Positions 1-6,659 of a stretch of DNA of 7,054 nucleotides are shown here, piece by piece. Both the position numbers and the translations under genes were made by a program. Origin of the DNA: a bacterium (GTDB lineage: Bacteria > Verrucomicrobiota > Verrucomicrobiae > Limisphaerales > J093); assembly GCA_021839785.1 (NCBI GenBank), contig JAKCAB010000410.1:1-7054 (forward strand), written 5' to 3'. The stretch's first letter is position 1. The number at the start of each line of letters is the position of its first letter. Under the pieces are notes generated by a model that was not told where the DNA came from, did not search any database, and saw nothing but the letters and a program-made list of their open reading frames with translations.

Positions 1-1038
1 CCAGCGTCTGGTGAAGGCGCGCGTGGATGGCCAGCTCGCGCGCGTCGCGTTCCAGCCCGGCGACGAGGTGAAGCAGGGCGACTTGATTTTTGAGACGACC
101 CCCGTCCGTTTCAGGCAACGCTGGATCAGGCCACGGCCGTCCTGGCGCGGGACGAGGCCTCGCTGCAGAACGCCGAGGCCGACATGAAGCGCACCGACGA
201 ACTGGCCGGCACCAAGGCGGTGCCCGCGACGGTGGTGGACGCCAACCGTGCGAAAGTCGCGACGTTCAAGGCCTCGGTCGCGGCCGACCAGGCCGCCATC
301 GCGAGCGCCAAGCTGCAGCTCTCGTTTTGTTCCATCACCTCGCCGGTGGACGGCCGCATGGGGTTGCTGCTCGTGGACGCAGGCAACATGGTCAAGAACA
401 ACGACACCATCCTCGTCATCGTCAATCAGACCCGGCCGATCTTCGTGGATTTCGCGGTTCCGGAGCGCTCGTTGCAGGAGGTGAGGGCAGCGGCGGCGCG
501 CGGCCATTTGCGCGTCCAGGCGGCGACCCCGCAACATCCGGAGAAGGCCGCCGTGGGCGAGCTGGAGGTCGTGAACAACCAGGTGGACACCACCACGGGC
601 ACGCTGTTGCTGCGGGCGAAGTTCGCGAACGAAGACGAACGGCTGTGGCCGGGCCAGTTCCTGAACGTCACCCTCACGCTGGGCGAATTGACCAATGCGA
701 GGGTCGTGCCGTCGCAAGCGGTCCAATCCAGCCAGAGCGGTGACTTCGTCTTTGTCGTGAAGCCCGACGAGACGGTGGAAAAGCGGATGGTGACCACCGG
801 ACCGCAACGCGGGAACGAGACCGTCATCGCCCACGGGGTCAAGGCCGGCGAGACGGTCGTGACCGACGGCCAGTTGCGCCTGGTCCCGGGCGCCGAGGTG
901 AACGTGCAAACGCCGGGTCAGCGCGCCGGCGGCACACCGGCGGGCGGGCCGTCAACCGAAGGACCGCGAGCGGCCAGCACCGCTCAGCCGGCGAAAAGAC
1001 CATTTGCTGGCGGGCCGGGGCCGGGGAGGATTGCGTGA
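1..1038 (+). CDS. RND efflux periplasmic adaptor (AcrA/MdtA-type MFP), 5'-partial, one-base frameshift
   Basis: This is the periplasmic adaptor that links an inner-membrane RND pump to an outer-membrane channel. The coding frame runs through bases 2-94 as the first half of the lipoyl-like domain (KARVDGQLARVAFQPGDEV, then KQGDLIFE). It then continues one frame over from base 97 as DPRPFQATLDQATAVL. The usual family motif is EIDPRPF, so one base appears to be missing at about 95-103. After the break come the alpha-hairpin (about 112-315), the second lipoyl half (ITSPVDGRMGLLLVDAGNMV, about 335-395), the beta-barrel (VNQTRPIFVDFAVPE onward), the membrane-proximal domain (VVPSQAV...FVFVV...GVKAGETVVTDGQLRLVPGAEV), and a Pro/Gly/Ala-rich tail (about 905-1035). 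The ATG at 184 lies inside the hairpin and is not a credible start; the real start is upstream of the window. The stop overlaps the GTG of the RND permease by four bases. Family assignment is very secure. As written the gene is broken, unless the missing base is a sequencing error. Confidence 0.9.
92..112 (+). other. Frameshift site in the adaptor gene
   Basis: Upstream coding sense ends with the GAG codon at 92-94, and downstream sense resumes at GAC (97-99), one frame back. Adding one base at 95-96 (ATC for AC) restores EIDPRPF, the family consensus. Adding one C to the five-C run at 99-103 restores ETTPRPF. Without correction the upstream frame reads 25 or so unrelated residues and stops at the TGA at 185-187. 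A ribosomal slip on the earlier T run (87-91) would not help, because the recovered frame meets TGA at 91-93. Confidence 0.85.
1025..1030 (+). promoter_or_regulatory. Ribosome binding site of the RND permease gene
   Basis: GGAGGA lies four bases before the GTG at 1035. It is the only strong Shine-Dalgarno sequence in the operon segment seen here. It supports the GTG start, which is also where the conserved RND N-terminus (NISELFIRRPVMTTLVMSG) begins. It lies within the last codons of the adaptor gene. Confidence 0.7.
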
Positions 1039-3002
1039 ACATTTCGGAGCTGTTCATTCGCCGGCCGGTCATGACCACGCTGGTCATGTCGGGCATCCTG
1101 TTGTTCGGCGTCATCAGCTATCGCTACCTGGCGGTGAGCGACCTGCCCAACGTGGATTATCCCACGCTCCAGGTCTCGGCGAGCCTGCCGGGCGCCAGCC
1201 CGGAGACGATGGCTTCCGCCGTGGCGACGCCGCTGGAACGGCAGTTCACCACCATCGCCGGCGTGGACTCGATGTCGTCGGTGAGCGCCCTCGGCCTTTG
1301 CCAGATCACGATCCAGTTCACCCTGGACCGGAACATCGACGACGCTGCGCAGGACGTGCAGGCGGCCATCGCCAAGGCCTCGCGGCTGCTGCCGCAAGGC
1401 ATGCCCTCGCCGCCGACGTACAGCAAGGTGAACCCCGCCGACCAGCCGATTCTGTACATGGCGCTCACGTCGGACACCCAGCCGCTGTCGGCGGTGGGCG
1501 AATACGCGCAAACGCTCATGGCCCAGCGCATGTCGATGGTGAAAGGCGTGGCGCAGGTCGGCGTGTTTGGCGCACAAACCTACGCGGTCCGGATCCAACT
1601 CGATCCCAGTGCGCTCGCCAGTCGCGGCCTCGGCATCGACGAGGTCCAGCAGGCGGTGGCGCAGGGCAACGTGAACCTGCCCACCGGCACGCTCGATGGC
1701 CCGAAGCAGGCGTTCACCGTTCAGGCCAACGGCCAGTTGTTCAAGGCAGCGGATTACCGGCCGCTCATCGTGGCCTATCGCAACGGGCAACCGGTTCGCC
1801 TCGGCGACCTGGGCCGGGTGATCGACAGCGTGCAGAACGACAAGGTGGCCGCGCGGTTCAACACCACCCGCGCGATCATCCTGGCCGTCCAGCGCCAGCC
1901 CGGCGAAAACACGGTCGAAGTCGTGGACAACATTCGCGCGCTGCTGCCGACCTTGCGCGCGCAGTTGCCCGCCTCGGTGAATTTCGAGATCCTCTACGAC
2001 CGCTCGCAGTCCATCCGCGAATCCGTGCACGACGTCCAGTTCACCCTCATGCTCACGGTCTGCCTGGTGGTGTTGGTGATCTTCCTGTTCCTGCGGAACC
2101 TCTCCGCCACGGTCATCCCCAGCCTGGCGTTGCCGATGTCGCTGATCGGCACGTTCGCCGTGATGTACCTGCTCAACTACAGCGTGGACAACCTTTCGCT
2201 GATGGCGCTCACGCTCTCGGTGGGCTTCGTCGTGGACGACGCCATCGTGATGCTCGAGAACATCGTCCGCCACATCGAGGAAGGCATGCCCGCGTTCGAG
2301 GCGGCGCTCAAAGGCGGGCGCGAGATCGGCTTCACGATCATTTCGATGACTCTGTCGCTGGCGGCGGTGTTCATCCCGGTGCTGTTCATGGGCGGCATCC
2401 TCGGCCGGTTGCTGCACGAATTCGCGGTGACGATCATGACCGCGGTGCTGGTGTCCGGCTTCGTTTCGCTGACGCTCACGCCGATGCTGTGCAGCCGGTT
2501 TGTGCGGCCGCCGGGCCAGGCGCACCACGGCCACGTCTATGCGGTGTCGCAGCGGTTCTTCGACGGCATGTTCGGATTTTACGAGCGCACGCTGCGGGTC
2601 GTGTTGCGACACCGCCTGACCGTGATCTTCGTTTCGCTGGTCGTGCTGGTGGCGACGGGCTACCTGTTCGTCACCATTCCCAAAGGCTTTTTCCCGAGCG
2701 AGGACACCGGCCAGATCTTCATCGTCACCGAGGCGGGGCAGGACATCTCCTTCGATTCCATGCGCGACCACCAGCTTGCCTTGATGCATTTGTTGATGCA
2801 GGAGACGAACATCCTCAACAACCTGACCTCGTCCATCGGCGCGGGCGGGCCGACCACCACCGGCAACAGCGGCCGCATGTTCGTGCGCCTCAAACCGCGC
2901 TCGACCGGCCGGCCGCACGTGGACCAGATCATCCAGCGCCTGCGCGGCAAGCTCAACTCCGTGCCCGGCATCAGCGCCTTCCTGCAGAACCCGCTGCTGT
3001 GA
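1035..3002 (+). CDS. RND multidrug efflux permease, MdtB/MdtC-like, C-terminally truncated
   Basis: This is the inner-membrane proton/drug antiporter subunit of a tripartite efflux pump (HAE1 type). Visible parts, in order: the N-terminal helix FIRRPVMTTLVMSG (residues 8-21); the first porter region with LPNVDYPTLQVSASLPGASP; YSKVNPADQPILYMALTSD, typical of the MdtB/MdtC/MuxBC subgroup; helices 2 and 3 (FTLMLTVCLVVLVIFLFLRN, then IPSLALPMSLIGTFAVMYL); and helix 4 with GFVVDDAIVMLENI, whose D401 and D402 correspond to the AcrB proton-relay pair D407/D408. Helices 5-7 follow (…FIPVLFMGGILGRL…; …SLTLTPMLCSRF; …HRLTVIFVSLVVLVATGYL), then TIPKGFFPSEDTGQIF. The protein stops at residue 655 (FLQNPLL), inside the second porter domain. 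Family members are about 1,020-1,050 residues, so the rest of the porter and docking domains and helices 8-12, including the TM10 lysine of the proton relay, are absent. It starts at GTG, overlapping the adaptor stop (GTGA). As written it cannot form a working pump. Confidence 0.93.
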   Translation: MNISELFIRRPVMTTLVMSGILLFGVISYRYLAVSDLPNVDYPTLQVSASLPGASPETMASAVATPLERQFTTIAGVDSMSSVSALGLCQITIQFTLDRNIDDAAQDVQAAIAKASRLLPQGMPSPPTYSKVNPADQPILYMALTSDTQPLSAVGEYAQTLMAQRMSMVKGVAQVGVFGAQTYAVRIQLDPSALASRGLGIDEVQQAVAQGNVNLPTGTLDGPKQAFTVQANGQLFKAADYRPLIVAYRNGQPVRLGDLGRVIDSVQNDKVAARFNTTRAIILAVQRQPGENTVEVVDNIRALLPTLRAQLPASVNFEILYDRSQSIRESVHDVQFTLMLTVCLVVLVIFLFLRNLSATVIPSLALPMSLIGTFAVMYLLNYSVDNLSLMALTLSVGFVVDDAIVMLENIVRHIEEGMPAFEAALKGGREIGFTIISMTLSLAAVFIPVLFMGGILGRLLHEFAVTIMTAVLVSGFVSLTLTPMLCSRFVRPPGQAHHGHVYAVSQRFFDGMFGFYERTLRVVLRHRLTVIFVSLVVLVATGYLFVTIPKGFFPSEDTGQIFIVTEAGQDISFDSMRDHQLALMHLLMQETNILNNLTSSIGAGGPTTTGNSGRMFVRLKPRSTGRPHVDQIIQRLRGKLNSVPGISAFLQNPLL

Positions 3003-3084
3003 GACTTTCCAGCAGTGGCTCCGCCGCAAACTGCGCCGCCCACGCACCGCTGAACCCGGTCTCGCCGTTTCCCCGACCGCATGA
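3001..3084 (+). pseudogene. Probable residual C-terminus of the RND permease
   Basis: Read from 3001 in the frame one base off the permease frame, this stretch gives ETFQQWLRRKLRRPRTAEPG followed by LAVSPTA and a TGA at 3082-3084. An amphipathic, Arg/Lys-rich cytoplasmic tail after a residue pattern like Y-L-[ED]-x-[FL] is how MdtB/MdtC-type permeases usually end (MdtC ends with FFDRLRLRFSRK and a short tail, from memory). Its TGA overlaps the next ATG as ATGA, matching the junction at 4331. I infer that this is the genuine 3' end of the permease gene, joined out of frame to base about 2997-3000 by loss of the middle part. The alternative is an ordinary 78-base spacer. Confidence 0.6.
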
Positions 3085-4334
3085 GCAACGCACCCGATCC
3101 GCACCCGCCGTCGCCCGGCGCCGAGCCCGGCGCACCCGCAAAGAAGAACGGCCCCCCGCCGTGGCGGCTCGCGGGCTTTGCCTTGCTGGCCGCCGTGGTC
3201 GCCGGACTCGGCTTCGTGGGGTTGCGTTATCTCGTGGACGTGTTCACGCACGAGAGCACCGACGACGCTTACCTCGAAGGCCCCATCGTGGCCATTTCGC
3301 CCAAGGTGGCCGGCATCGTTTCCGCCGTTTACATTCATGACAACCAGCCGGTGAAGGCCGGCGACTCGCTGGTCGATATCGATCCACGCGACTACGAAGC
3401 CGCCCTGGCCCACAAGCGGGCCAGCCACAACGTCTCGGAGAGCAACCAGAAGACTGTGGCCAGCGCTTATGCGTTGATGCAGGCCCGCCCGGCCACCGCG
3501 GAATTGACGGCGAAGCAGAGCCAGTCCGAGGCGGCGGCTTCCGAGGCGACGGCCGAGCGCGCTGAGGCGGATTTCAAGCGGATGGAGTCACTGCGTAAAG
3601 AAAACGTCAGTTCCGCGCAGGAATTCGATCTCGCTCGCGCCGCCGCCCGCGCCACGGCCGAGGCGGACCGGGACAAGGTCGCCACCGACCGGTCCCGCGT
3701 CACGGAAGCCCACGCGCAACTGGACGCCGCCGGCGCTGCGTTTGCGATGGCACGGGCCGAGGTCCACCAGGCGGAAACCGATGTTAAGATCGCTGAACTA
3801 GACCTTTCGTACACGCGCCTCGTCGCGCCGACGAACGGCTTCGTCACCCGCAAGGCCGTCCACGCCGGCGAATACGTCCAGGTCGGCCAGCGGTTGCTCG
3901 CCGTGGTGGTGCCGGATTTCTGGGTGGTGGCCAACTTCAAGGAAACCCAGTTGCAGAACCTCCTTCCCCACCAGCCGGTCGAACTGCACGTGGACGCCTA
4001 CCCCGACCGGAAGTTTGCCGCGCACGTGGACAGCATCCAGGCGGGCAGCGGCGCGCGCTTCAGCCTGTTGCCGCCGGAAAACGCGGTCGGCAATTTCGTG
4101 AAGGTGGTGCAGCGCGTGCCGGTCAAAATCCTGTTCGACCAGCCGCCGGACGAAGCCCACAAGCTCGGCCCCGGCCTGTCGGTGGTGCCTTGGGTTCGCA
4201 CCAGCGATTTTCAGGTTTCAACGCCGGTGCTGGCCCTGGCCGCCATCGTGGTGGCGGCGCTGTTCACCGCGCTGGTGTGGAAAGCCGTCCCGCCGGGTGG
4301 CAAGGACGCCCCGAAGTCCGCGCCCGGACGATGA
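3081..4334 (+). CDS. emrA: EmrA-like MFS efflux adaptor (HlyD family) with extra C-terminal membrane helix
   Basis: This is the periplasmic adaptor that partners an EmrB-type MFS exporter and extends toward an outer-membrane channel. It has 417 residues (E. coli EmrA has about 390). A Pro-rich cytoplasmic N-terminus (1-27) is followed by a membrane anchor (about 30-50), then STDDAYLEGPIVAISPKVAG (59-78), the typical EmrA opening of the lipoyl-like domain. A long Ala/Glu-rich alpha-hairpin spans about 105-240. The second lipoyl half is LSYTRLVAPTNGFVTRK (242-258), and the beta-barrel carries VANFKETQ (283-290) and FSLLPPENAVGNFVKVVQR (327-345), all EmrA hallmarks. Residues 383-403 form a second hydrophobic stretch, unusual for EmrA. 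There is no clear Shine-Dalgarno before the ATG; an in-frame TGA at 3051-3053 rules out an extension upstream. The missing ribosome site suggests translation coupled to the upstream gene, which makes the damage in the permease relevant to its expression. It overlaps emrB by ATGA. Confidence 0.93.
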   Translation: MSNAPDPHPPSPGAEPGAPAKKNGPPPWRLAGFALLAAVVAGLGFVGLRYLVDVFTHESTDDAYLEGPIVAISPKVAGIVSAVYIHDNQPVKAGDSLVDIDPRDYEAALAHKRASHNVSESNQKTVASAYALMQARPATAELTAKQSQSEAAASEATAERAEADFKRMESLRKENVSSAQEFDLARAAARATAEADRDKVATDRSRVTEAHAQLDAAGAAFAMARAEVHQAETDVKIAELDLSYTRLVAPTNGFVTRKAVHAGEYVQVGQRLLAVVVPDFWVVANFKETQLQNLLPHQPVELHVDAYPDRKFAAHVDSIQAGSGARFSLLPPENAVGNFVKVVQRVPVKILFDQPPDEAHKLGPGLSVVPWVRTSDFQVSTPVLALAAIVVAALFTALVWKAVPPGGKDAPKSAPGR

Positions 4335-6074: not shown

Positions 6075-6659
6075 CTACGCCGGCGGCAGAATCTCCACGA
6101 TTTCCGAGAGCGCGCGATTTTGGGCGTCCCAAATCGTGTTGCGGCGGCCATACAGCGTGTGCCGCCCCTGGAGCCGGAAGGCGCGGTTCATCAAGTCGTC
6201 CGACTCGATTCGAAGGTAAGCGAGCGGGTGACCATGATGCGGGATGTTCCGCATGTTGAGGATGTGGCCGAGCGGCAGGTATTCATCCAGGATCAAGCGG
6301 CGCACGTCGGCGGGGAACAACACCAGGTTCACCTTGTTGGCGCCGAACTCGACCGCGCGCTGGTCCCGGTCCAGGCGCAACACCACTTCGCGAAAGTACA
6401 GGTCGTTTTGACGCTGCCGGCCCCAGACCTCGATGTGGATGTCGCACCGGTGGAACCGCTCCAGCGTGGGGGTCATGTCGTGATCGTGAACCAGCAACCC
6501 CCGGTACGGCTCTGGCACCAGTTCGCTGGGGATGATCTCGATCCGTGGCAGCGGCTGGCGCTCGCGGGCGTAGAAATCGTCCAGCGGGTAAAGAAAGGCC
6601 CCGGTCGCCGGGACCGGGGCCTTCACTTGCGGTGTCAGCGAATATGTCGCAGGCATCAT
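6075..6659 (-). CDS. UbiC-like (chorismate lyase fold) protein of unknown substrate
   Basis: This 194-residue soluble protein has no signal peptide and no membrane segment. After a Pro/Ala-rich lead (1-25), its core resembles the chorismate pyruvate-lyase fold: LVHDHDMTPTLERF (56-69; UbiC has LLLEDSMTKRFE), YFREVVLRL (88-96; UbiC WLREILL, including the active-site Arg, here R90), YLPLGHIL (127-134; UbiC TPLGRYL), LYGRRNTI (169-176; UbiC LWGRRSRL) and SEIVEILPPA (185-194; UbiC TELFLPAS, with the catalytic Glu matching E189). The spacing and key residues suggest the same superfamily. The UbiC GRTVVP stretch reads VEFGANKVN here, so chorismate may not be the substrate. Two ATGs stand side by side; AGGAA (6663-6667) is three bases from the first and six from the second, so the start at 6656 may be the one used. 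It overlaps the upstream gene by one base (TGATG), implying a shared transcript. Superfamily is fairly secure; function is open. Confidence 0.8.
   Translation of the reverse strand: MMPATYSLTPQVKAPVPATGAFLYPLDDFYARERQPLPRIEIIPSELVPEPYRGLLVHDHDMTPTLERFHRCDIHIEVWGRQRQNDLYFREVVLRLDRDQRAVEFGANKVNLVLFPADVRRLILDEYLPLGHILNMRNIPHHGHPLAYLRIESDDLMNRAFRLQGRHTLYGRRNTIWDAQNRALSEIVEILPPA
6590..6623 (-). terminator. Terminator-like hairpin inside the 5' part of the UbiC-like gene
   Basis: Bases 6595-6606 and 6612-6623 are a perfect 12-bp inverted repeat (AAGGCCCCGGTC and its complement) with a five-base loop. On the minus strand the hairpin is followed by a T-rich run (TTTCTTT, counting the last two stem bases). 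It has the shape of an intrinsic terminator, yet it lies over codons 13-24 of the UbiC-like gene (KAPVPATGAFLY). It could attenuate transcription coming from the beta-helix gene. It could also be chance from GC-rich Pro/Ala codons. Confidence 0.4.

Follow-up and report, generated by a model that had tools for sequence, protein, structure and literature searches.

We conclude, with a probability of roughly 0.93, that the window analysed here (the whole stretch of 7,054 nucleotides) records the recent decay of a tripartite RND efflux pump, with the EmrAB-type MFS genes downstream of it still open, and that the RND half of this combined RND and EmrAB operon has become a young pseudogene cluster. 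Three genes that close relatives have intact carry at least four lesions between them. The first-pass annotation of this DNA had described a loss from the permease gene and had overlooked the breakage of the adaptor and channel genes of the same operon; with these included, the anomaly looks like the ordinary decay of an entire pump and not a lone deletion.

Genomic setting of the window

The window corresponds to bases 31237–38290, read on the minus strand, of a 45,330-bp contig of genome G000, a 6.1-Mb draft in 326 contigs that is 91% complete. The three closest named loci (L016–L018), whose permeases are 73–77% identical, are from Verrucomicrobia, and Acidobacteria and cyanobacteria are frequent lower down among the 78 named loci. 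Upstream of the permease lie the adaptor and channel genes of the same pump and then tetR. The frames that are open on this contig and match Pfam domains over the cut-off encode EmrA (417 aa), EmrB (524 aa), TetR (214 aa), an Obg-type GTPase (394 aa), a phosphoesterase (298 aa), a PQQ-repeat protein (410 aa) and a beta-helix protein (797 aa), whilst Pfam gave no match for two more long ORFs on the contig (1,229 and 573 aa) or for the 194-aa and 131-aa ORFs on the minus strand of the window. The 131-aa ORF is the end of the beta-helix gene, which is coded mostly beyond the window; the 194-aa open frame (6075–6659, minus strand) directly follows the end of that gene and has neither a Pfam nor an NCBIfam match. 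The features on which the argument turns are these:

1–115, plus strand: N-terminal frame of the pseudogene for the adaptor (MdtA-like membrane-fusion protein), by tblastn with P0122 residues 1–109
76–115, plus strand: stretch holding the adaptor frameshift, where two tblastn matches overlap
184–1038, plus strand: remaining adaptor frame, a 284-aa ORF (P0121) found on four contigs; TIGR01730, 187.4 bits against a cut-off of 94.9
1035–3002, plus strand: truncated RND permease (MdtB/MuxB-like), 655 aa, covering PF00873 profile positions 1–657 of 1021
2994–3000, plus strand: putative deletion junction, placed by homologue spacing; seven bases not assigned to either flank from the DNA of relatives
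3001–3084, plus strand: orphaned permease C-terminus, 27 codons and a TGA in the +1 frame
3081–4334, plus strand: emrA (MFS-pump adaptor), 417 aa, open; best match TIGR00998
4331–5905, plus strand: emrB (DHA2-family MFS permease), 524 aa, open; TIGR00711

A truncated permease and its displaced C-terminus

The permease frame closes at a TGA at 3000–3002. Homology to the HAE-1 RND permeases of PF00873 and of NCBIfam RND_permease_2 / MdtB-MuxB is present over the N-terminal half of the product (674.5 bits for PF00873), which we take from the topology to span that half and the beginning of the second. A full permease of this family has both halves, is about 1,000–1,050 aa long and exceeds the curated NCBIfam cut-offs; the window protein has 655 aa and scores 786.8 bits for NF033617 (cut-off 1250) and 739.5 for NF007798 (cut-off 1584). 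Among the 120 homologues listed of 7,971 matches, 109 have at least 1,000 aa. When the protein is aligned to MdtB, the GFVVDDAI helix of the first half is seen to be kept, and the conserved KKNAIMMIDFA helix to be lost along with most of the second half; both helices have a role in the proton relay.

Behind the stop, a second frame opens with GAG at 3001 and reads ETFQQWLRRKLRRPRTAEPGLAVSPTA. Its TGA at 3082–3084 overlaps the emrA ATG at 3081 as ATGA, and its 27 residues align without gaps to the C-terminus of P0004, a 1,040-aa permease that is 95% identical to the 655 residues of the window, with 22 of the 27 identical. In comparisons with the last 60 residues of the 109 full-length homologues (the 11 of the 120 listed that fall below 1,000 aa were dropped), the mean local score of the tail was 44.5, against 19.1 for shuffled sequences, and none of 300 shuffles reached the observed value. 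For the five other frames of the same bases the observed mean was reached by 238, 72, 193, 25 and 6 of 300 shuffles; the frame with 6, on the minus strand, is mildly high, yet it scores no more than 29 in any single comparison, where the tail reaches 115. Judged by this similarity, the 27 residues past the permease stop are a genuine permease C-terminus. The first-pass annotation had proposed just this, a stop at residue 655 with the true C-terminus out of frame behind it, and had suggested the alignment to full-length C-termini that bears it out; its reading of the gene junctions (ATGA between tail and emrA, ATGA at 4331–4334, GTGA at 1035–1038) was also accurate, and only the length that it quoted for the tail has to be corrected, being seven residues too short.

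The spacing of landmarks in the homologues gives the size of the loss. From the asparagine of the QNP motif to the first acidic residue of the tail, 95 of the 101 homologues that were parsed have 362 residues, the others having 363 (four), 364 (one) and 371 (one); a further eight of the 109 could not be parsed. The usual spacing corresponds to 1,086 bp, against 13 bp in the window, so that 1,073 bp (3 × 357 + 2) are missing, in agreement with the earlier estimate of roughly 1.0–1.1 kb and 3n+2. The breakpoints were also sought in the DNA of relatives (14 loci, with permeases up to 83% identical), which proved too diverged at 2994–3000.

Lesions in the adaptor and channel genes

The adaptor begins about 211 bp upstream of the window. 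Residues 1–109 of P0122, a 416-aa adaptor, match window coordinates −211 to 115 in tblastn, and residues 97–416 match a different frame from 76 on. An in-frame TAG, seen in G000 DNA only, lies about 102 bp upstream of the window and cuts the adaptor off after 36 codons. Where P0122 has a single uninterrupted frame, the adaptor of G000 is therefore broken by both an in-frame stop and a frameshift, and its 284-aa remainder scores 221.1 bits for MdtA (NF008589), against a cut-off of 391. The ATG of this remainder lies within an ATGA at 184–187, overlapping a TGA of another frame, probably by coincidence.

The outer-membrane-channel gene is split over two frames near residue 343, about 613–617 bp before the window, and the resulting 382-aa fragment is found on four contigs. 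Full-length forms of all three proteins, P0004, P0122 and the 475-aa channel P0245, are each on a 2,321,996-bp contig. The broken permease, adaptor and channel genes probably share one set of four contigs, which probably stem from independent samples. The lesions are probably young and common in the population.

Their age was approached through relative-rate tests, 13 three-way comparisons covering all three genes. In none was the window branch significantly faster than the branch of the P0004 contig, and the largest chi-square, 3.33, came from a test in which the non-window branch was the faster. For the permease, 11–14 changes fell on the window branch and 7–12 on the P0004-contig branch (five outgroups); the corresponding ranges were 6–15 and 14–20 for the adaptor (three outgroups) and 10–14 and 17–21 for the channel (five outgroups). 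The absence of significant acceleration fits a recent loss. Accelerated change, which would have been a sign of old decay, was significant in none of the tests.

Alternative explanations

The first-pass annotation had left the choice between a real deletion and an assembly collapse, and of the two it is the deletion that is now favoured. A collapse or chimeric join would mean that the genome holds a whole permease from which the assembler dropped about 1.07 kb. G000 is indeed an incomplete draft in many pieces, and it is conceivable that related samples were assembled again to give the four contigs. However, among the matches listed, the 655-aa form occurs with the same last residues on four contigs, as P0001 on two, P0002 on one of 15,116 bp and P0003 on one of 22,427 bp, and these carry different substitutions, P0002 differing from P0001 by three residues and P0003 by two. 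The partner genes have lesions of their own, independent of the deletion, and each of the two broken products is found on four contigs. The missing half, searched for with the homologous half of L016 (a permease 76% identical to P0004 over its full length), has no close copy elsewhere in the 91%-complete assembly; there were 19 matches, the best of which is 38% identical and belongs to a different RND pump. Because the 655-aa form is present on four contigs with differing residues and its missing half lacks a close copy, the sequences strongly suggest a true loss of about 1.07 kb, and we regard a collapse as very unlikely.

Given a real deletion, the 655-aa protein might have been kept as a functional half-size transporter or regulator. 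Its 95% identity to P0004 and the unaccelerated window branch agree with this, as does P0073, a protein of 654 aa from a 77%-identical lineage that stops at nearly the same place. Against it, most of the second half has gone, the conserved KKNAIMMIDFA helix included, and the adaptor and channel that should work with the protein are broken. At sites that are at least 99% conserved, the window permease is altered at 4 of 258 and P0004 at 1 of 259, though 5 of the 109 intact homologues have as many such changes or more. A retained function of this kind seems to us highly improbable. The adjacency of the stop and the tail frame also brings to mind programmed +1 frameshifting at CTG-CTG-TGA, by which the N-terminal part would be linked to the tail; the joined product would still be short by about 357 residues, around a third of the protein, and on that ground we reject the idea as scarcely credible.

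Related loci and known systems

Permeases in the same order are mostly complete. Of 320 genomes of the order, 66 (G000 included) match the permease at E ≤ 1e-250, and in 61 of the 66 the frame is open over at least 1,028 aa. The five exceptions are G000 itself (752 between stops), G028 (829), G202 (869), G205 (649) and G216 (797); the G216 frame has one internal TGA, and those of G205 and G216 come within 80 bp of a contig end. Interrupted RND permease frames thus recur in draft genomes of the order, as in G028:C243 (829 aa) and G202:C37 (869 aa), and in the former (L145) the permease match is in two separate pieces with the break near residue 753–767. Frames were followed in 21 of the 78 named loci, and 18 run for 1,024–1,065 aa; L020 (883) and L025 (989) have unreadable codons in the permease frame, and that of L028 leaves its stretch.

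The locus of G046 (L140) shares with that of the window the order channel, adaptor, RND permease, emrA, emrB, and its permease is 82% identical. Unlike that of the window, this permease is intact and open at 1,037 aa; the arrangement that the first-pass annotation had named as contrary to its proposal, a 655-residue permease followed by a non-coding spacer in relatives, is not what G046 has. The two loci also differ in that 7 bp separate the permease stop from the assigned emrA ATG in G046, where the ancestor-type junction of the window is an ATGA overlap. Few of the relatives sampled have the combined operon: permease and EmrB matches occur together in 41 genomes of the order, and the genes are neighbours in two (G000 and G046), share one contig at least 40 kb apart in three more and are on different contigs in the remaining 36, in which linkage could be masked by the end of a contig. 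Viral contigs scanned with P0004 gave one locus (48%), which was set aside.

The closest structural match by sequence to P0004 in the PDB is MdtB (9lyq), and E. coli mdtABCD resembles the window in placing an RND adaptor and permease and then an MFS gene in one operon (PMC4462101). That operon encodes the MdtA adaptor, the MdtB and MdtC RND permeases and the MFS transporter MdtD. The operon of the window differs in having a single RND permease gene, in the EmrA-type adaptor that precedes its MFS gene, in the channel gene with which it begins, and in a TetR gene upstream where E. coli has BaeSR. A parallel for the loss is found in Shigella flexneri M90T, in which, according to PMC6393483, insertion sequences disrupt mdtABCD, mdtEF and cusCFBA and emrAB is kept. 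Both cases combine inactivated RND genes with retained emrAB, but at the locus of the window, which is from a different phylum, the damage consists of a deletion, a stop and frameshifts rather than insertion sequences, and the RND and emrAB genes share one operon. Among the titles listed by the literature searches that were run, none deals with the operon or with how it decays in these bacteria.

P0073 comprises three member sequences and ends near the last residue of the window permease; its own last residues diverge in a way that resembles a frameshift at the conserved QNPP motif, which may be a coincidence or a recurrent point of loss. Two further contigs, of 8,676 bp (P0123 and P0243) and 23,193 bp (P0124 and P0244) and from close relatives, have full-length channels and adaptors with altered C-termini. 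Of the 7,971 matches to the permease, the 120 listed include none on a contig of either size, and an independent permease loss on these contigs is possible. The C-terminal pieces of the adaptors match the window adaptor over 38 residues for P0123 (E = 1.7e-7) and 10 for P0124 (E = 0.004); nothing else with E < 0.09 was found for them in the window, L099 or L140 among the matches listed. The window deletion, P0073 and these two contigs together could be read as a dual-pump operon that has lost its RND permease repeatedly and independently and has kept other genes, and in which the deletion, by severing translational coupling, may have retuned EmrAB; this reading we consider unlikely.

Predicted consequences for emrA and emrB

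EmrB exceeds its family cut-off (TIGR00711, 458.1 bits against 230.2). EmrA falls below that of its best-matching family (TIGR00998, 225.6 against 390.8) and is above that of HlyD_D23 (65.7 against 30). The start of emrB overlaps emrA as ATGA at 4331–4334. A strong Shine–Dalgarno sequence precedes the permease and none precedes emrA or emrB: the anti-Shine–Dalgarno energies are −11.0, +0.4 and −1.1 kcal/mol, respectively, in the window, and G046 has the same pattern (−9.4, +0.6 and +0.1). The permease stop is now 78 nt upstream of the emrA start. In native E. coli and Haloferax gene pairs, reinitiation drops sharply as the distance grows, and gaps of about 20–38 nt nearly abolish it, although further reporter work cited in that source has coupling across longer gaps (PMC10666635). 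Since emrA has no Shine–Dalgarno sequence of its own and the nearest terminating ribosome is now 78 nt away, it would be predicted by analogy with these species to have lost its stop–start coupling and probably to be translated less, and EmrAB may as a result be under-translated. The 7-bp gap at this junction in G046, in place of an ATGA, counts against such a loss of coupling. If translation of emrA did depend on the permease stop, nature has with this deletion performed an experiment on the reach of reinitiation.

Conclusions

Under the preferred reading, a recently decayed RND pump ahead of open EmrAB genes, the ancestral order on one strand would have been tetR, channel, adaptor, permease, emrA and emrB, with the permease stop overlapping the emrA start. 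A 1,073-bp (3n+2) deletion would have joined permease codon 653–655 to the 27-codon C-terminus out of frame, and permease translation would since have ended at 3002. With most of the second half of the permease missing and both adaptor and channel broken, no RND pump is to be expected, and it is presumably not made. Selection on the pump was probably relaxed because further RND pumps encoded in the genome cover for it. Besides this permease, seven matched RND frames of at least 1,035 aa are open in G000, and there are channel-family matches on further contigs; these may explain the relaxed selection, and the other channels could serve EmrAB.

The window is a new example of ordinary pump decay, and the anomaly is most likely the organism's own and not that of its assembly. 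The case shows that a deletion scar can be recognised from a short tail that lies out of frame next to a stop. Automatic annotation would assign an MdtABC-like pump to an organism that is most likely unable to make one.
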